Source of the DNA: a virus | Reading direction: 5' to 3' (one strand) | DNA: 22,580 nt | Virus record (IMG/VR): IMGVR_UViG_3300013118_000318 | Span: 1 to 22,580 of that record | Shown: positions 1-12,823 of the stretch, one piece after another | Layout of the letters: each line of letters begins with the position of its first letter | Position numbering within the stretch: the first letter of the stretch is position 1 | The notes under the pieces: generated by a model | Databases searched by the model: none | The model's input: only the letters and a program-made list of their open reading frames with translations | Told to the model about the DNA's origin: nothing | Program-made: the position numbers and the translations under genes

Positions 1-585
1 TCTACAGTTCGTTAGATAGTTTCTAGAACTATTCAATGGCTGAGGGTTTGTCTTGATCCACTCTACAAATCTCAACTGCTTGAACTTGTTTTGCTCCAGT
101 ATGTTCTTCAAGTCAGTGATCTTCCACAGATCAAAGAACACAATAGCAGTGCCGCCCTTACGCAATACTCTGTAGAACTGATGGACAAACTCGTTCAGAG
201 ACTCTAACGTAAATTTAGAGTCCCACTCCCCATAGTCTGTCTTTACTGCATATTTTTTGCCGTATATACTACCGTACTTTAGATAGTTTCTCTTGTGCTT
301 CTCTAATTCGTCTCGCCATAACTCTTTGTTGTCCTTGAATTTACTGTTCTCGAAAAACTGTTGCCACTGTTCTGCGGTCTTGTAACTGTTCCATTGCTCA
401 GTAGTCTTTACGTCTTGAGATCCCGCCTTATCCTGTTCGTTAACATGATCAACCCATTTATCCATACCAGTCTCTCTTGACGTGATATAGGGAGGATCTG
501 TCAGCACAAGATCAACAGAATTGTTATCTAGTCCTTTGAGAAATTCTACCCCTTCCTTTAGTTCAATTGACTGTTCGATTTTCAT
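1..585 (-). CDS. Beta-class N4/N6 DNA methyltransferase, 3' part beyond the window
   Basis: The first 195 codons of a gene that runs off the window at base 1. The ATG at 585 directly follows the TAA of the upstream gene. The protein opens with the target-recognition side of an amino-methyltransferase: residues about 23-33 read SVDLVLTDPPY, where DPPY (30-33) is catalytic motif IV. A strand with GGTAIVFFDLW (about 146-156) fits a following motif. In the beta class (N6_N4_Mtase fold) motif IV comes before the AdoMet-binding FxGxG motif, which would lie past the window edge. It should methylate adenine N6 or cytosine N4 in duplex DNA; the recognition sequence cannot be read. It is the third gene of a methyltransferase / nuclease-like / methyltransferase cassette. 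The family call is firm; specificity and completeness are unknown. Confidence 0.9.
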   Translation of the reverse strand, partial: MKIEQSIELKEGVEFLKGLDNNSVDLVLTDPPYITSRETGMDKWVDHVNEQDKAGSQDVKTTEQWNSYKTAEQWQQFFENSKFKDNKELWRDELEKHKRNYLKYGSIYGKKYAVKTDYGEWDSKFTLESLNEFVHQFYRVLRKGGTAIVFFDLWKITDLKNILEQNKFKQLRFVEWIKTNPQPLNSSRNYLTNCR

Positions 586-1155
586 TTAAAATGATCCTAT
601 AATTCTTTTTTGTAATTCGCGCTTCATGCTTTTATAATCAATATCCCCAATCAGTGTTGGCGTTACTGACCTATGCACAAACTCCAGTTCAACAAGGGGA
701 ATCTTGGCGATTATCGCATCAGAAGATCTAACAAGATACTTAGACAGTGACTCTCTGGTGATGATTGCTAGACTATTTTCTTGCCCAATCATATAGTAAT
801 CAGATTTGAGTGAGTCTATTAGCGGTTCGTTATCTTGGTTGTTCCCGATTTTATTTACAACTCTGACATTGACATTCTTTCTAAGGTTTCCCTTCTTTGT
901 TATCAACCCGTGAGAAATAAATTTGAATTCCACATGATGATTGTGCTTGGTATCAAGATGATCGCGTCCAGTTTCATCAATCCACTTGAGGCGTCCTTCA
1001 CTAAAGGCTTCAACACCCCCCTCTGCGAAGTCTGCTTTGTCGAACCTAAGTTTTCTCTCATTCAGAGATGGACCAATGGATGTCATCAGATTAGTATAAC
1101 GTCGTCCATCGATCACTGTCGACAACTCTTTTGCGTATTGTTTCAAGGTGAGCAT
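586..1155 (-). CDS. Candidate PD-(D/E)xK restriction endonuclease between two methyltransferases
   Basis: A 189-residue protein not recognised by overall similarity. Residues 65-78 (RDHLDTKHNHHVEFK begins at 64) put Asp65 or Asp68 before a strand carrying Glu76-x-Lys78, the spacing of a PD-(D/E)xK nuclease core. Basic strands follow (VNVRVVNKIGNN, 95-106), then a DYYMIG segment (119-124). Its start lies two bases after the stop of the D12 methyltransferase, its ribosome site (AAAGGA) lies inside that gene, and its stop abuts the next methyltransferase. Lying between two methyltransferases is what one expects of the cognate nuclease, as in DpnII-like systems with two adenine methylases and one nuclease. 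Context plus a plausible active site make a type II endonuclease the best guess. It is shorter than DpnII itself and could be another DNA-binding accessory protein. Confidence 0.55.
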   Translation of the reverse strand: MLTLKQYAKELSTVIDGRRYTNLMTSIGPSLNERKLRFDKADFAEGGVEAFSEGRLKWIDETGRDHLDTKHNHHVEFKFISHGLITKKGNLRKNVNVRVVNKIGNNQDNEPLIDSLKSDYYMIGQENSLAIITRESLSKYLVRSSDAIIAKIPLVELEFVHRSVTPTLIGDIDYKSMKRELQKRIIGSF

Positions 1156-1156
1156 A

Positions 1157-2041
1157 TCAGTTCCTTTTGTAACTGGTTATTAGCAACTCTTTGCGATCTT
1201 TTTGTGCTTCTGTGTATACCTTACTAGATTGCATTGTATATGTCAAGTCCCAATCATTAAAATAATAATCTGAAAATCGTTTTCTTAAAACTTCGTTAGA
1301 ATTATATGTAATCATCCATTCATGCTTACACTTTACAACGTCGTCATAAAATCTCATGTGGTCAAAACCTGAGTGCATGTTGCCGTTCTTACCATAGAGG
1401 TCATCTTTAATGTCATATGGTGGATCGAGGAATACAAAGCAATCTTGCCCCTTTGCGTTCAACACGCGATCATAGTCAAAATTAGTGATTTTCCAATCCT
1501 GTATTATCTTAGAATATGCTGGCAGCTTGTTGATGCCAGTCATACTAAAGTTCGATTCTGATGCTTGCTCTGAAAAAGAACTGCTCTCACCAAGTCCAGA
1601 GAAACTACACTTATTTAGTATGAAAAAATATACCGCCTTAGTAAAATCATCGACACTTGCGATGTCTGCCCTTGCTTTATTGAACAGTGCTCTGTGTTTA
1701 TCGATATTATTGATGATGGACTTGTCCCATTGAGACTTATCAATCTTATCCTTTCTCAGAGGTTTGGTAACATACTCAATGGGTTTCTTGATGCGTGCCA
1801 ACTCTTGATGCAGTGCTGGTCCTTTATCCCTTAGTTGCACCCAGAAGTTATACAAACTGTAGTACGCATCGTTAACCCAGACCTTTGTACCTGGTCGTGT
1901 TTGTGTGACGTGTAGTGCCATTGAACCACCTCCGAGGAATGGTTCTCTAAATTCCTTAAACTGCTTAGGCAGATCAGGATCCAGTTTCTTGATGGCCCTG
2001 GACTTGCCGCCAGGGTAACGTAATGGTGTTTTCAATGCCAT
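1157..2041 (-). CDS. D12-class (Dam/DpnM-like) N6-adenine DNA methyltransferase
   Basis: A complete 294-residue methyltransferase of the D12 class. TPLRYPGGKSRA (5-16) is the N-terminal AdoMet-site signature of this class, REPFLGGGSMALH (32-44) is motif I, WVNDAYYSLYNFW (55-67) follows, FILNKCSFSGLGE (140-152) is the conserved central segment, and FLDPPYD (204-210) holds catalytic DPPY. The length is normal for Dam and DpnM. It transfers methyl from AdoMet to adenine N6. Recognition is not deducible by eye, though many members act on GATC, a site common in this window. The gene follows the barrel-like protein with a good ribosome site (AGGAG) and leads the cassette with the nuclease candidate and a second methyltransferase. 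It would protect phage DNA or the cassette's own targets. Confidence 0.93.
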   Translation of the reverse strand: MALKTPLRYPGGKSRAIKKLDPDLPKQFKEFREPFLGGGSMALHVTQTRPGTKVWVNDAYYSLYNFWVQLRDKGPALHQELARIKKPIEYVTKPLRKDKIDKSQWDKSIINNIDKHRALFNKARADIASVDDFTKAVYFFILNKCSFSGLGESSSFSEQASESNFSMTGINKLPAYSKIIQDWKITNFDYDRVLNAKGQDCFVFLDPPYDIKDDLYGKNGNMHSGFDHMRFYDDVVKCKHEWMITYNSNEVLRKRFSDYYFNDWDLTYTMQSSKVYTEAQKDRKELLITSYKRN

Positions 2042-2065
2042 TTGTTTGTGCTCCTATTTTTATAA

Positions 2066-2614
2066 TTACCAGTTAACGCCAGTTGTAATTGCAGTTGCCC
2101 AATAGTTGTTGACATCAGGTATGAAACTGAAGTGTACTGGTACGCTGAACATGCCAGCATCCAGAGTGTATCCAACTGCGCCGATCAGGTGAACAAACTT
2201 ATCCTCTCCTGATGGATCGTGGAACGATAGGTTTGGACCTACGGCGATCTGAAATGACTTATCAATCTCAAATCCAATCAGTGCTCGAACTGATGGAGAG
2301 ATAACACTCTGATCTAATCCTGAAAGACTTACGTTCTGAATGAACAACACGTCCAACCAATCTCCACCTGGCATGCATTGCTGTAACTCGTACCCCATAG
2401 TGGTCATGTGTGGGCTCTTGAGTTTTGACTCCTCACCATTAGAGTCTGGTTTGTGTGAGTCGTTAGCATACGCATAACCGAATCGGACACCTGACCGCTT
2501 GGTCCACTTGCCTTGTCCCTTGGCGTCTGTTGGGTGTGCCGATGCCTGGGGACATCCTGCTAGTGGTGCAACGATTAACATCGCGAGTGCACAGATTAAA
2601 ATTTTCTTCAACAT
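2066..2614 (-). CDS. Exported, beta-rich protein, probably outer-membrane barrel or lipoprotein
   Basis: A 182-residue protein with a clear export signal: basic MLKK, a hydrophobic core at 5-17, then LAGC (18-21), a good lipobox. An AxA site (ASA, 24-26) is also present, so signal peptidase I cleavage before HPTD is an alternative. The mature part is rich in glycine and alternating residues (VRFGYAYAND, VRALIGFEID, FQIAVGPNLSF, FVHLIGAVGYTL), as in small eight-stranded barrels. It ends in Trp (TTGVNW), like the terminal aromatic of barrels handled by the BAM complex. Family not recognised. The gene lies just after the tRNA and before the methyltransferases, with a strong ribosome site (AAGGAG). 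An early exported envelope protein could alter the host surface, for example in superinfection exclusion; that is inference. Confidence 0.6.
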   Translation of the reverse strand: MLKKILICALAMLIVAPLAGCPQASAHPTDAKGQGKWTKRSGVRFGYAYANDSHKPDSNGEESKLKSPHMTTMGYELQQCMPGGDWLDVLFIQNVSLSGLDQSVISPSVRALIGFEIDKSFQIAVGPNLSFHDPSGEDKFVHLIGAVGYTLDAGMFSVPVHFSFIPDVNNYWATAITTGVNW

Positions 2615-2646
2615 AGTTTCTCCTTTTTTTGTTGATTAAATAAAAG

Positions 2647-2720
2647 CGCCCTGGGTAGGATTCGAACCTACGACCTGCGGATTAGAAGTCCGATGCTCTA
2701 TCCAGCTGAGCTACCAGGGC
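2647..2720 (-). tRNA. tRNA-Arg (anticodon UCU)
   Basis: A full 74-nt cloverleaf folds on the minus strand. The acceptor is GCCCTGG with CCAGGGC and discriminator G. The D arm is GCTC/GAGC, the anticodon loop CTTCTAA with TCT at 2686-2684, the variable region AGGTC, and the T arm GTAGG/CCTAC with loop TTCGAAT. The outermost pair of the anticodon stem is a T-C mismatch; the other four pair. No CCA is encoded, so the host must add it. It reads AGA and AGG codons. It sits inside a message, 7 bases downstream of a microprotein stop codon and 32 bases before the next start, so it must be cut from a protein-coding transcript. Confidence 0.97.
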
Positions 2721-2727
2721 ATATATA

Positions 2728-2820
2728 TTAGTGACTTCTTCTACGCCACCAATCAAATACTACACTGCCGAGGAAAATCCCAGCAGAGAGAGCGACAATA
2801 TCAATTATAAATCCGAACAT
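2728..2820 (-). CDS. 30-residue membrane microprotein with WWRRR tail
   Basis: A 30-codon gene, first after the promoter at 2848-2876. The ATG at 2820 has a purine-rich site (AAGGGA) seven bases upstream. The product starts MFGFIIDIVALSAG and forms one hydrophobic helix (about 2-21), followed by FDWWRRRSH. Aromatic residues at the boundary and three arginines after them suggest a single-pass inner-membrane peptide with the C-terminus in the cytoplasm. The function is unknown and no family is recognised. It shares its promoter and message with the tRNA, the barrel-like protein and the methyltransferase cassette. The promoter, ribosome site and clean helix make chance unlikely. Confidence 0.65.
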   Translation of the reverse strand: MFGFIIDIVALSAGIFLGSVVFDWWRRRSH

Positions 2821-2847
2821 GTTTTATCCCTTCATTGTTGTGTAACT

Positions 2848-2876
2848 ATTGTATCAACACTTAAATTGAAAGTCAA
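2848..2876 (-). promoter_or_regulatory. Sigma70-type promoter of the tRNA / methyltransferase unit
   Basis: On the minus strand, -35 TTGACT (2876-2871), a 17-base spacer and -10 TACAAT (2853-2848), each one mismatch from consensus. Transcription would start about 20 bases before the microprotein ATG at 2820. The -35 box contains the TGA stop of the upstream gene (2875-2873). Confidence 0.85.
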
Positions 2877-3109
2877 GCGTTTTTTGCTCTTGAAATGATT
2901 TTTAAAAATTTAGCACGAATCCACTCACACTCACCTGTAGACATTCTTATTTGGCATCTATACTCATCCCTGTGCCAAAAGTAATCGTCCGTAACGCTCG
3001 GCAAGTCGTGTATTCGCTTCTTCTGAGTTACTAAACCAATCTCTCCGCAATCCTTTGTAGGTTCCGTAACTCTAACGATGTCTCCAATGTCAAACTCTTG
3101 TCTGTGCAT
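2873..3109 (-). CDS. Small SH3/KOW-like beta-barrel protein
   Basis: 78 residues with the layout shared by several small genes here: a start with FDIGDIVRVTEP, a turn, EIGLVTQKK, then two more strands (YRCQIRMSTGECEWIRAKFLKII). A glycine-aspartate-hydrophobic opening, a G-L-V strand and a tryptophan near the end are typical of SH3-like or KOW barrels, which bind RNA, DNA or proteins. The particular partner is unknown. The ATG at 3109 has only a weak AGG site. It is the last gene of the transcript from the promoter at 6707-6735, and its stop lies inside the next promoter's -35 box. Confidence 0.7.
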   Translation of the reverse strand: MHRQEFDIGDIVRVTEPTKDCGEIGLVTQKKRIHDLPSVTDDYFWHRDEYRCQIRMSTGECEWIRAKFLKIISRAKNA

Positions 3110-3121
3110 AAACCTAACTAC

Positions 3122-3628
3122 TTAAAACCAATCGTCGTCGTCCCAGTTGAACGGGTTGTCATATTCATCCGTATCACTAGGATCCTTCTTGTTGCCACTA
3201 GATACCTTAGTTGATGGTACGTAAGGTGGTACAATTGGCGGTTTCTTGGTTGTTTTTGCTGAAGATCTTTTAGTGTATTGCTTTTGCTTCAGCACCTTCT
3301 TTTTCTTTTCAAACTTTCTTCTCAATATCTCAACCTTATCGTGCCTTTCGATAATACCCTGGGACATTGCTGGCAAATAAGACGGGTCTCCCCCGTCAAA
3401 CACTCTTACTTTTTCTCCCGACTTGAGAGTGAGTACAGGGTCTCCACCGATGATAGAAGGATGTGCAATAAGTTCCGATGCTGTCAGGTTCTTATAGAGA
3501 GTCTTCACTCGCCCCTCAATTACACTCGTTACGGGTACCCTAAAAGTACCCTTACTATCAGCCTCCACGACTGTTCTCTCCCCATCATAGAGGAAAGAGA
3601 CATGTTTTATAATCCTGGTTGACTTCAA
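3122..3628 (-). CDS. Unknown protein with beta-rich N-half, basic linker and acidic DDDDWF tail
   Basis: 168 residues if translation starts at the TTG at 3628, which sits eight bases after a strong GGAGG. An upstream in-frame TTG at 3643 lies 5' of that site and is less likely. The N-terminal ~95 residues look beta-rich (TRIIKHVSFLYDGERTVVEA, GGDPVLTLKSGEKVRVFDGG). A very basic stretch follows (FEKKKKVLKQKQYTKRSSAK), then a proline-rich segment (KKPPIVPPYVPS) and an acidic end (NPFNWDDDDWF). An acidic tail ending in Phe recalls the C-terminal tip of single-stranded DNA binding proteins, which recruits partners; no OB-fold was recognised, so this is only a resemblance. It lies five bases after the Cys-rich lipoprotein gene. 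Confidence 0.72.
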   Translation of the reverse strand: MKSTRIIKHVSFLYDGERTVVEADSKGTFRVPVTSVIEGRVKTLYKNLTASELIAHPSIIGGDPVLTLKSGEKVRVFDGGDPSYLPAMSQGIIERHDKVEILRRKFEKKKKVLKQKQYTKRSSAKTTKKPPIVPPYVPSTKVSSGNKKDPSDTDEYDNPFNWDDDDWF

Positions 3629-3633
3629 GTCAC

Positions 3634-3861
3634 TCACCTCCAACGCCTCTTCTCGTAGCAGATATGGTACTCATCGCAGATCTGAACTTCTCTGGTTTCT
3701 TCCCAGCAATAATTCCTGTTACAGACCTCAACCCTCTCCTGTCCATAATAACAGTCGTATTCCGTGTGAGAATATTCTGGGTGATATGGGTCGCAATCAT
3801 CGTCTAGCAAAATTAGACATCCTTGCAACATACAAAACAAAACCAATAATACTACTCTCAT
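3634..3861 (-). CDS. Cys-rich small lipoprotein
   Basis: 75 residues. The N-terminus MRVVLLVLFCMLQGC is a short lipoprotein signal with lipobox LQGC (Cys15 lipidated). The mature part is acidic and rich in Tyr and Cys, with Cys at 23, 37, 47, 52, 62 and 68, an even number that could form three disulfides in the periplasm. The ATG at 3861 overlaps the stop of the membrane microprotein upstream (ATGA), implying translational coupling. A membrane microprotein of the same 47-residue length followed by a Cys-rich lipoprotein recurs at 16551-16948. Function unknown; envelope defence or lysis accessory roles are possible. Confidence 0.72.
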   Translation of the reverse strand: MRVVLLVLFCMLQGCLILLDDDCDPYHPEYSHTEYDCYYGQERVEVCNRNYCWEETREVQICDEYHICYEKRRWR

Positions 3862-4001
3862 GTTCTACCCCAAATCAAAGTTCTCAACGACTTCACTCCA
3901 ACTTCGGCCGCAATCAACGTACCATAGACAGCTGCACCAAGAATTAAAGGTGCTGCGAGAATGGCAACATCAAGACAGAGTGTTATGTCATCCCGTTTCA
4001 A
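3858..4001 (-). CDS. 47-residue membrane microprotein, TTG start
   Basis: The reading frame between two genes opens at TTG 4001, seven bases after GAGG, and stops at 3858 in an ATGA overlap with the lipoprotein gene. The product starts MKRDDITLCLD and carries one hydrophobic, Ala-rich helix (VAILAAPLILGAAVYGTLIA, about 12-31), then VGVKSLRTLIWGRT. The first 14 bases overlap the upstream SH3-like gene in another frame. The ribosome site, the tight coupling at both ends and the helix support a real gene even though TTG is a weak start. Its length equals that of the membrane microprotein at 16805-16948. Function unknown. Confidence 0.65.
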   Translation of the reverse strand: MKRDDITLCLDVAILAAPLILGAAVYGTLIAAEVGVKSLRTLIWGRT

Positions 4002-4248
4002 AAGTAATCCTCAATTCTTTAATACGAGCACAAAGTTTGGCGTACTTCTCTGGGACGTGGCCCTCTTTCTTCCTCTCCAAGATCGACACCAGTGGTTCTG
4101 CCCACTCATCGACGGATGGCACATAGACCAAGTACTTGTCGCCAAACACTTCCTTGTAAAACATCCCCTCAAGTCCATTACAATTAGTGCCAAAGAGATC
4201 ATAATCTCCAATAAAAATTAACGCTTCGCCCTGTTTAACTTCACTCAT
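3988..4248 (-). CDS. SH3-like small protein with charged helical tail
   Basis: 86 residues. The N-terminal ~50 residues fit a small barrel: VKQGEALIFIGDYD, LEGMFYKEVFG, KYLVYVPSVDEWAEPL, with the G-M and W-x-E-P-L ends usual for this group. A basic helix follows (VSILERKKEGHVPEKYAKLC). The ATG at 4248 follows a microprotein gene by four bases. The role is unknown; such barrels are often nucleic-acid or protein binders. It belongs to the run of related small barrels between 2873 and 7370. Confidence 0.68.
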   Translation of the reverse strand: MSEVKQGEALIFIGDYDLFGTNCNGLEGMFYKEVFGDKYLVYVPSVDEWAEPLVSILERKKEGHVPEKYAKLCARIKELRITFETG

Positions 4249-4252
4249 CTAC

Positions 4253-4345
4253 CTAGTCCCTGTAATCATAATTAATGATAGCAAAACAAAAAAATAATAG
4301 CAACACAAAAAAGAACTTAAAAATAAAACCATCCGTAAGCAGCAT
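4253..4345 (-). CDS. Possible 30-residue membrane microprotein
   Basis: An ATG at 4345 opens 30 codons between two SH3-like genes, ending four bases before the next start. The product is one hydrophobic helix (FIFKFFFVLLLFFCFAII, 7-24) with a polar end NYDYRD. No convincing ribosome site precedes it, and a T-rich minus strand makes hydrophobic codons cheap. The case rests on position, on filling an otherwise empty gap, and on resemblance to the other one-helix microproteins here. Confidence 0.4.
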   Translation of the reverse strand: MLLTDGFIFKFFFVLLLFFCFAIINYDYRD

Positions 4346-4359
4346 GTTGCCAAGAGCGC

Positions 4360-4563
4360 TTAACGCTTTGTGAGTTGCCAAATCCATACTTCCTCCACAA
4401 TGCCCGTGGTCCAAGCTACGCGATACCTCTTCGCACTAACTGGTTTGATAACAATACCCACGCAAGCAGAAATATCCTCCCCCAAGAACTTTGAATATTC
4501 TCTGGCATCCAACCCAATTAGCATGCCTGGGTATATCTCGTTTGGTTTTAATCTCTTAGACAT
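4360..4563 (-). CDS. SH3-like small protein
   Basis: 67 residues, almost all barrel: IYPGMLIGLDAREY, CVGIVIKPVSAKRYRVAWTT, GIVEEVWIWQLTKR. The P-G-M/D-x-I opening, G-I-V strand, R-V-x-W strand and final W-I-W are the pattern shared with the genes at 2873, 4762, 6293 and 7083. The ATG at 4563 lies inside the end of the preceding gene (16-base overlap). Function unknown; probably binds a ligand or nucleic acid through the barrel. Confidence 0.72.
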   Translation of the reverse strand: MSKRLKPNEIYPGMLIGLDAREYSKFLGEDISACVGIVIKPVSAKRYRVAWTTGIVEEVWIWQLTKR

Positions 4564-4808
4564 TTTTTATTTTGTGATATGTATCGACTGATGTGATGAC
4601 AGATGTCAAGACTGTCACCTTCGAATCCTCGATCAAGTTCTTTATAAGACTCTAGTGCCTCTCTGGTTAATATAAACAATCTCGCAAATAAATCTGCTCT
4701 TGGCCCAAGATCTGATAATTGTTTCGTGTCCAAGTCATCCACTGAATACCCACTGTCTTCGTCAGACTTCCAATGGTAACCACTCCCCACTCTCCATTCT
4801 TTTGACAT
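4548..4808 (-). CDS. Unknown small helical protein
   Basis: 86 residues, not recognised. After a polar start (YHWKSDEDSGYSVDDLD) most of the protein should be helical (ADLFARLFILTREALESYKE), then LDICHHISRYISQNKKC. No signal peptide or membrane segment. The ATG at 4808 would overlap the upstream gene by 47 bases, more than usual here, so a later start is possible, but no clearly better site was seen. It lies between two SH3-like genes. Confidence 0.6.
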   Translation of the reverse strand: MSKEWRVGSGYHWKSDEDSGYSVDDLDTKQLSDLGPRADLFARLFILTREALESYKELDRGFEGDSLDICHHISRYISQNKKCLRD

Positions 4809-4995
4809 CTTTCTTTCTAATTAAACTCCACGACTTAAATTTGGTAATCCTACCCTCGTTTAACCCGTTTAACAATAAAACATTGTAATAATCATTGGGA
4901 AGAAACCCAACTACTTTTCCAAAAACATTAATTGGTTTACCTAGAGGAAAGTCCCTTAAGTAAACCTCATCGCCTCTGTTAAACTCCCTGTCCAT
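4762..4995 (-). CDS. SH3-like small protein
   Basis: 77 residues with FNRGDEVYLRDFP at the start, FGKVVGFLPNDYYNVLLLNG in the middle, and ITKFKSWSLIRKKDV before a short tail. The G-D-x-V opening, G-K-V-V-G-F strand and final W-x-L-I fit the same barrel type as its neighbours. The ATG at 4995 lies 38 bases after the FKBP stop and has no clear ribosome site. Function unknown. Confidence 0.7.
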   Translation of the reverse strand: MDREFNRGDEVYLRDFPLGKPINVFGKVVGFLPNDYYNVLLLNGLNEGRITKFKSWSLIRKKDVKRMESGEWLPLEV

Positions 4996-5033
4996 ACTAA
5001 GTAATTAGTACAGACAGGGGTTCAAAAGGTGAT

Positions 5034-5471
5034 CTAATTTACCTCTACTAATTCGATATCAAAGTTGAGATTCTTGCCTGCCATAGGATGATTAAAATCA
5101 ATCACAACAAACTCCTCCTCAACCTGATTAATCACTCCACGAACTGGCTGATTCTGTACGTTTCCTTCAATAACCACTCCCGCTTCAAACTCAAAGTTCT
5201 CTGGAAATGATTGTTTTGGCACAGATTGGATGCCTTCAGGATTATGTTCACCATAAGCCTGTTCAGGTTCAAGTGTAACAGTCTTCGTTTCGCCAACCTT
5301 CATCCCATTAACAGCTGCGTCAAATCCAGGGATCATCTGCCCTGCACCCACAGTAAACTCAATGGCCTCGCCACGGTCATACGAACTATCAAAAACAGTT
5401 CCGTCCTCGAAGGTTCCCTTGTAGTGAACATGCACTGCACGACCTTCCTTTGCTATTGTCTTCTTACCCAT
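5034..5471 (-). CDS. FKBP-type peptidyl-prolyl isomerase, SlyD-like
   Basis: 145 residues. The FKBP half begins VHVHYKGTFEDGTVFDSS (13-30), followed by IEFTVGAGQMIPGFDAAVNG (37-56) and VGETKTVTLEPEQAYG. Residues about 70-125 form the inserted chaperone flap of SlyD-type enzymes, and the core closes with FNHPMAGKNLNFDIEL (126-141). The enzyme turns prolyl peptide bonds in the cytoplasm and the flap binds unfolded chains. The His/Cys-rich metal-binding tail of E. coli SlyD is absent. No signal peptide. The ribosome site is strong (AAGGAG). With GroEL, Hsp20 and the ClpP-like protein it makes a folding set, perhaps serving late virion protein synthesis. The family call is secure. Confidence 0.95.
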   Translation of the reverse strand: MGKKTIAKEGRAVHVHYKGTFEDGTVFDSSYDRGEAIEFTVGAGQMIPGFDAAVNGMKVGETKTVTLEPEQAYGEHNPEGIQSVPKQSFPENFEFEAGVVIEGNVQNQPVRGVINQVEEEFVVIDFNHPMAGKNLNFDIELVEVN

Positions 5472-5485
5472 TTTATGTACTCCTT

Positions 5486-5740
5486 TTAATTGTTTTGGTT
5501 AAGATCTTTTTTTCTCTTCATTTTTTTCTTGAGGTATTTTCCAACCTCTGATTCTAGTTCAACCTCCTCCAATCCCTCCTCTTCTGGAGGTTCCCATATG
5601 TCCCACTCTACATTATCCATATTATCCTTTCCGTAGATGTAAGTCAAGTGATTTTCGAAATCTTTTGCCTTACAGTCAAAAGTCGAAGTCCTATCTTCGA
5701 TATGATTATTCTTGAGAATATATACTGTCGCTTCAATCAT
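5486..5740 (-). CDS. Unknown small protein with acidic then basic tail
   Basis: 84 residues, not recognised. The start reads like a short beta-alpha-beta unit (ATVYILKNNHIEDRTS, then AKDFENHLTYIYG), with a Trp pair (VEWDIWEPP). It continues with an acidic run (EEEGLEEVELESEV) and ends in a basic run (YLKKKMKRKKDLNQNN). The ATG at 5740 overlaps the upstream stop in ATGA form. The opposite charges could suit protein-protein or nucleic-acid contacts; nothing more can be said. Confidence 0.65.
   Translation of the reverse strand: MIEATVYILKNNHIEDRTSTFDCKAKDFENHLTYIYGKDNMDNVEWDIWEPPEEEGLEEVELESEVGKYLKKKMKRKKDLNQNN

Positions 5741-11239: not shown

Positions 11240-12823
<1,584 letters not shown>

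Follow-up and report, generated by a model that had tools for sequence, protein, structure and literature searches.

Restriction-modification is usually viewed as a bacterial defence against phages, and phages often carry the methyltransferase half alone, as a shield. In the MboI system, the genes follow one another in the order methyltransferase, endonuclease, methyltransferase. A viral methyltransferase gene beside an endonuclease gene is also found in chloroviruses and Marseilleviridae, there as here. In chloroviruses, endonucleases packaged in the virus particle are believed to break down host DNA, but mutual exclusion was not caused by these enzymes (PMC7019647). For Marseilleviridae, it has been proposed that rival viruses are excluded, and Melbournevirus left host DNA undegraded (PMC7253447). 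These viruses infect eukaryotes, whereas the locus described here belongs to a bacterial virus, and its single gene row holds two methyltransferases and perhaps as many endonucleases. A literature search by title and the start of the abstract, with most subscription journals outside its coverage, found no paper on such a phage system.

The methyltransferase cassette

The DNA analyzed in this study (the window) is a stretch of 22,580 nucleotides, positions 1 to 22,580 of IMG/VR virus record IMGVR_UViG_3300013118_000318. Its first three genes all lie on the minus strand, and their transcribed order is a D12 (alpha) class Dam-like N6-adenine methyltransferase gene (P0002, 2041-1157, 294 aa, PF02086), the gene of the orphan protein P0001, a candidate PD-(D/E)XK endonuclease (1155-586, 189 aa, with D65 or D68, E76 and K78), and a beta-class DpnA-like DNA methyltransferase gene (585-1, PF01555), of which 195 of 294 aa are inside the window. 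The D12 methyltransferase and P0001 genes are separated by one base (TGA, T, ATG), and there is no gap between P0001 and the beta methyltransferase, where TAA abuts ATG. Shine-Dalgarno-like sequences stand before the starts of the D12 methyltransferase, P0001 and the beta methyltransferase (AGGAG, AAAGGAAC and AGGAT, respectively). From these junctions and the Shine-Dalgarno-like sequence at each start, we infer that the three genes are probably translationally coupled as one unit. A tRNA-Arg gene (TCT anticodon) was also observed upstream of the cassette at 2646-2720 on the minus strand.

The sequence-only reading had described three genes with almost no gaps, and the three frames and their 1-base and 0-base gaps agree with this description. 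Its methyltransferase calls also hold, for the D12 gene with PF02086 and for the beta-class gene with PF01555, but the beta gene is incomplete in the window. The further statement that the cassette repeats the gene content of DpnII-type systems stands in part: a D12 (DpnM-like) and a beta-class (DpnA-like) methyltransferase lie around a third gene, as in DpnII and MboI, but by profile this middle gene falls outside the DpnII family: P0001 has 189 aa against the 278 positions of the DpnII profile and gave no PF04556 match. The PF04556 search at E ≤ 10 matched none of four phage records, including the whole long phage record (G001), and matched five of 14 control genomes, one above the cut-off. 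By this profile evidence, the cassette is not classed as a DpnII-type system; it may work like one.

The D12 methyltransferase matched PF02086 (E 5.4e-30) and the phage methyltransferase family phrog_56 (E 3.2e-77), with which it scores far better than with DpnM. Its closest solved chain was 7m6b_B (E 5.7e-61), with the DpnM chain 2dpm_A at E 1.6e-5, and the dam model TIGR00571 stayed under its cut-off (85.8 vs 114.85 bits). Matches were present in 436 phage records, 330 of them named Synechococcus, with a best identity of 50.9%, and judged by these similarities the gene is close to the Dam genes of marine cyanophages. In four cyanophage or marine records viewed, the Dam genes nearest to it are located near replication (clamp-loader) genes (at L018 by frames only), and P0001 is absent beside them; at L018 and L020 it was searched for and not found. 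The window shows 16 differences from two near-identical records (5.5 kb compared), and every one of them falls within 73 bases of the D12 methyltransferase gene, window positions 1697-1769. This patch amounts to five residue changes at residues 100-114, and it lies inside residues 88-130, which phmmer left unaligned with the nearest solved relative. It appears to be recombined or fast-changing and lies perhaps in the target-recognition part of the enzyme.

The beta methyltransferase matched PF01555 (N6/N4 methyltransferases) with E 3.4e-10 for the part in the window and 1.2e-31 for the full 294 aa, and its best solved chains were 5hfj/5hek (E 5.6e-33), named DpnA by their depositors. Its closest bacterial relative found, in a Bdellovibrionaceae MAG (49% identity, L028 1-1240), overlaps a gene of the IceA family (PF05315, E 1.4e-32). 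The IceA family includes restriction enzymes, and these two overlapping genes may form a restriction-modification pair of the bacterium. Of many similar phage records, that of Escherichia phage JohannJBalmer was viewed, and the 8.5 kb surrounding its beta methyltransferase relative contain no annotated endonuclease. With Dam-like kin in cyanophages, IceA-overlapping kin in a bacterium and kin in JohannJBalmer, both histories are possible for the methyltransferases, as a shield or as a restriction partner.

The orphan protein P0001

Both D65-x10-E76-x-K78 and D68-x7-E76-x-K78 are present in P0001, so that the D-x(7-10)-E-x-K core named in the sequence-only reading is there, but not above chance. 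The same pattern was found in 33 of 108 proteins (≥100 aa) of the long phage record and in 1189 of 5000 shuffled versions of the P0001 sequence, and a stricter motif with hydrophobic flanks in 5 of the 108 proteins and 101 of the 5000 shuffles. Because the motif is this frequent by chance, it is weak evidence by itself. At E ≤ 1, P0001 was without a family match in each of Pfam, PHROGs, NCBIfam and PADLOC; the Melbournevirus endonuclease was also without a motif in standard domain searches (PMC7253447).

Four scans of viral contigs yielded homologues in two records only, both IMG/VR records (146,626 and 50,630 bases) and identical over P0001, and there were none in genome_contigs and none in phages at E ≤ 10. 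These scans detect close relatives best, and therefore distant relatives of P0001 may exist. E76 and K78, which had been proposed as the residues to follow in homologues, were seen in identical copies only, and diverged homologues were not found. Several other matches were set aside. A plasmid match at E 8 sits in an oxidoreductase gene and is ascribed to chance, and a pattern match at L025, where the local frame belongs to an unrelated protein with 2729 residues or more, was likewise taken as chance. Two matches (E 0.005 and 0.008) in 368 genomes from the phylum of a Bdellovibrionales MAG are at chance level, one being in a dissimilar 421-residue frame and the other in a reading frame interrupted by three stops, and a match in G004 at E 0.06 lies in a 354-residue frame resembling an outer-membrane protein. 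The phmmer search of P0001 against PDB had designed alpha-repeat proteins at the top (best E 1.4e-4, with many weak repeat matches) and no nuclease. P0001 was also compared by profile with the family of P0006, which is discussed below, and no alignment resulted (probability 0.05%).

The AF2 single-sequence model of P0001 has a mean pLDDT of 36 and thus no confident fold. In this crude model, E76 and K78 are on strand 73-78, followed by strand 94-103, a short helix 112-115, strands 120-125 and 128-133 and helix 134-140, which is the order of strands and helices in the confident P0006 model after its VEYKS strand. Neither PDB nor BFVD yielded a Foldseek match at E ≤ 0.001. The PDB rows were mostly unrelated proteins (best E 0.6), and the nuclease domain of Eco15I had the top probability among the best 50 of them (0.28, rank 35); in BFVD, the unnamed I3ULT4 was best (E 0.084, probability 0.93), and A0A516M4M6 had a probability of 0.80. 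When the crude model was compared by VIA-align with 991 Foldseek candidates, 23 chains (18 entries) reached Z ≥ 2. Six of the 18 entries are PD-(D/E)XK nucleases, including ranks 1-3, 5 and 6, namely NhoI (8rpx and 8q5n, Z 3.9 and 3.4), Eco15I (3.4), PvuII (3.0), DpnI (2.9) and RecU (2.2), and the remaining 12 are unrelated proteins with a best Z of 3.1; by VIA-align's own note, Z values of this size may reflect only a common arrangement.

The structure prediction that had been suggested as a check on P0001 has turned out mixed: its best weak neighbours are PD-(D/E)XK proteins, but pLDDT is 36 and Z only 2.2-3.9. The same holds for the earlier suggestion that P0001 cuts DNA, which has these neighbours on its side, and against it the missing DpnII profile match and the missing confident fold. 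From this suggestive crude-model evidence, we lean modestly towards P0001 being a PD-(D/E)XK nuclease. The main alternative is that P0001 is no nuclease: the two methyltransferases would then shield the phage against host restriction, P0001 would be accessory or unrelated, and P0006 would be the sole endonuclease, whether or not with a partner methyltransferase. The wide distribution of Dam-like methyltransferases in cyanophages (the 436 records above) fits this alternative, as do the uninformative motif and unreliable model of P0001, but the tight junctions of P0001 between two methyltransferases, its PD-(D/E)XK-type strand order and its weak structural neighbours argue against it, and we consider it unlikely.

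P0006 and the extended gene row

The row continues beyond window position 1 in the long record, and the coordinates given here are those of L006, the locus carrying the extended row. Window positions 1-5504 are 99.7% identical to the 146,626-base record over the compared part. On the minus strand, the whole beta methyltransferase gene (L006 14197-15081, 294 residues) is followed by P0005 (L006 13119-14162, 347 aa), P0006 (L006 12560-13075, 171 aa), P0007 (L006 11439-12485, 348 aa) and then a T4-type RNA ligase. P0005 and P0007, which flank P0006, have no assigned function, and residues 98-188 of P0007 weakly resemble the ZorC family of defence proteins (E 0.0013). The phage encodes relatives of the P-SSM2 proteins gp17, gp18, gp20, gp21 and gp23, which are about 31-41% identical to them where the sequences align, and by these similarities it is a bacterial virus that belongs, as a distant member, to the T4 superfamily. 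The phage also has a GroEL chaperonin gene at window 11240-12817 on the minus strand (phrog_5725, E 3.5e-144).

The gene of P0006 stands outside the window, some 1.1 kb downstream from the beta methyltransferase gene, and its product matched phrog_35715, a family of no assigned function (E 1.7e-63). Its model, made from six aligned sequences, has a pLDDT of 83. The 12 best Foldseek rows were all PvuII (first E 7.7e-6, probability 1.00), and VIA-align superposed P0006 on PvuII with Z 10.3 and rmsd 3.5 over 128 residues, so that the predicted fold is PvuII-like over nearly the whole chain. D53, E63 and K65 of P0006 are invariant in nine of nine aligned sequences, among which P-SSM2 and P-SSM5 are nearly alike, and this D-x9-E-x-K aligns with that of PvuII, in which D58, E68 and K70 are the catalytic residues. 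The difference from PvuII lies in the sequence, which is about 18% identical and scores 13.4 bits with PF09225, under the curated 25; two of nine members of the P0006 family matched PF09225 at E ≤ 1, with a best E of 0.002. Judged by its model, P0006 is a well-supported endonuclease candidate, the strongest of the row, and with such a confident PvuII-like fold in the same row, a phage endonuclease near the methyltransferases is likely even if P0001 is none.

Relatives of P0006 were found in the Prochlorococcus phages P-SSM2, P-SSM5 and P-TIM68 (six records) and in five further IMG/VR contigs, and in the isolated phages P-TIM68 and P-SSM2 they are annotated as hypothetical. At five of eight loci (L011, L012, L013, L014 and L016; that is, P-TIM68 and four IMG/VR contigs), the P0006 relative is directly followed by an overlapping frame of 182-194 residues with SNPPF, which we take to be a methyltransferase-like motif. 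In P-TIM68, this frame is annotated as a DNA methyltransferase and has a weak Pfam methylase match (E 0.0014). The row gp049-gp050-gp051 of P-TIM68 resembles the row described here, as it consists of a methylase, gp050 as the relative of P0006 (47% identity, annotated hypothetical protein) and a second annotated DNA methyltransferase, but in the 12.5 kb viewed it has no P0001 and no D12 methyltransferase match. A beta-class methyltransferase is present in five of the eight fetched stretches around P0006 relatives (L010, L011, L012, L014 and L016), whereas in the stretches fetched for P-SSM2 and P-SSM5 both the overlapping frame and a beta-class methyltransferase are missing near the P0006 relative. 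The overlapping partner gene was searched for in G001 and not found; thus, if P0006 has a partner in this phage, it would be either methyltransferase of the row or some other gene. It is improbable that P0006, and perhaps P0001, are free-standing homing-type or replication/repair nucleases with one or few sites and the methyltransferases incidental neighbours, because, although the homing endonuclease I-Ssp6803I (Z 6.6, rank 15) and, with Z up to 6.0, the Holliday-junction resolvases Hjc and RecU are near P0006 in structure and the P-SSM2 and P-SSM5 stretches would suit such enzymes, PvuII is clearly the closest fold and methyltransferase-like genes overlap P0006 relatives at the five loci named above.

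Restriction sites in the phage DNA and the proposed role of the gene row

Neither GATC (738 seen vs 767 expected) nor CAGCTG (71 seen vs 52 expected) is avoided in the phage genome, and the phage would therefore need methylation if either were the target. CCGG is nearly absent from G001, with 9 seen vs 168 expected, and 0 vs 35 in the 37-kb region surrounding the cassette, and AGCC/GGCT is depleted (168 seen vs 478 expected). In 50-kb stretches of other phages (L041, L042 and L044), CCGG was seen 0 times vs 14 expected in P-SSM2, 0 vs 29 in S-SCSM1 and 0 vs 36 in syn9, and a Vibrio phage had 22 vs 111. A CCGG-cutting enzyme of the phage itself was set aside as the cause of the missing CCGG, because the three cyanophage stretches avoid this site too and two of these phages, S-SCSM1 and syn9, are without a P0006 match. 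The depletion may indicate a host that restricts CCGG, possibly a picocyanobacterium.

Considering the results above, we read the row as a restriction-modification-like island of a T4-superfamily phage, with one well-supported endonuclease candidate (P0006) and one possible one (P0001), and we judge this reading to be evenly balanced between right and wrong. The Dam-like and DpnA-like methyltransferases would mark the phage's own DNA. P0001 would most likely be a small PD-(D/E)XK endonuclease coupled to both methyltransferases, of a family not described in the searched libraries. The nuclease or nucleases, if their sites match those of the methyltransferases, would cut DNA that lacks the mark, whether from the host or from a co-infecting phage, in the way assumed for the chlorovirus restriction enzymes. 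The tight junctions, the flanking DpnM-like and DpnA-like methyltransferases and the IceA overlap in the bacterial relative of the beta methyltransferase speak for the island; the chance-level motif and pLDDT of 36 of P0001, the Dam kin without P0001, and the fetched P-SSM2 and P-SSM5 stretches without a methyltransferase speak against it.

More tentatively, and with the chances somewhat against it, the phage may carry a complete self-protecting restriction weapon, in which P0001 represents a new endonuclease family next to the PvuII-fold family, and host or rival DNA is destroyed while the phage's own is marked. If this is true, P0001 would found a new family of small endonucleases between Dam-like and DpnA-like methyltransferases, and the PvuII-fold family would be a second endonuclease, also in Prochlorococcus phages and partly beside methyltransferase genes. 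A phage with the cutting half too could use restriction offensively, as described for viruses of eukaryotes (PMC7253447; PMC7019647). As the PvuII-fold family is present in the isolated phages P-TIM68 and P-SSM2, this idea of offensive restriction is open to direct laboratory test.
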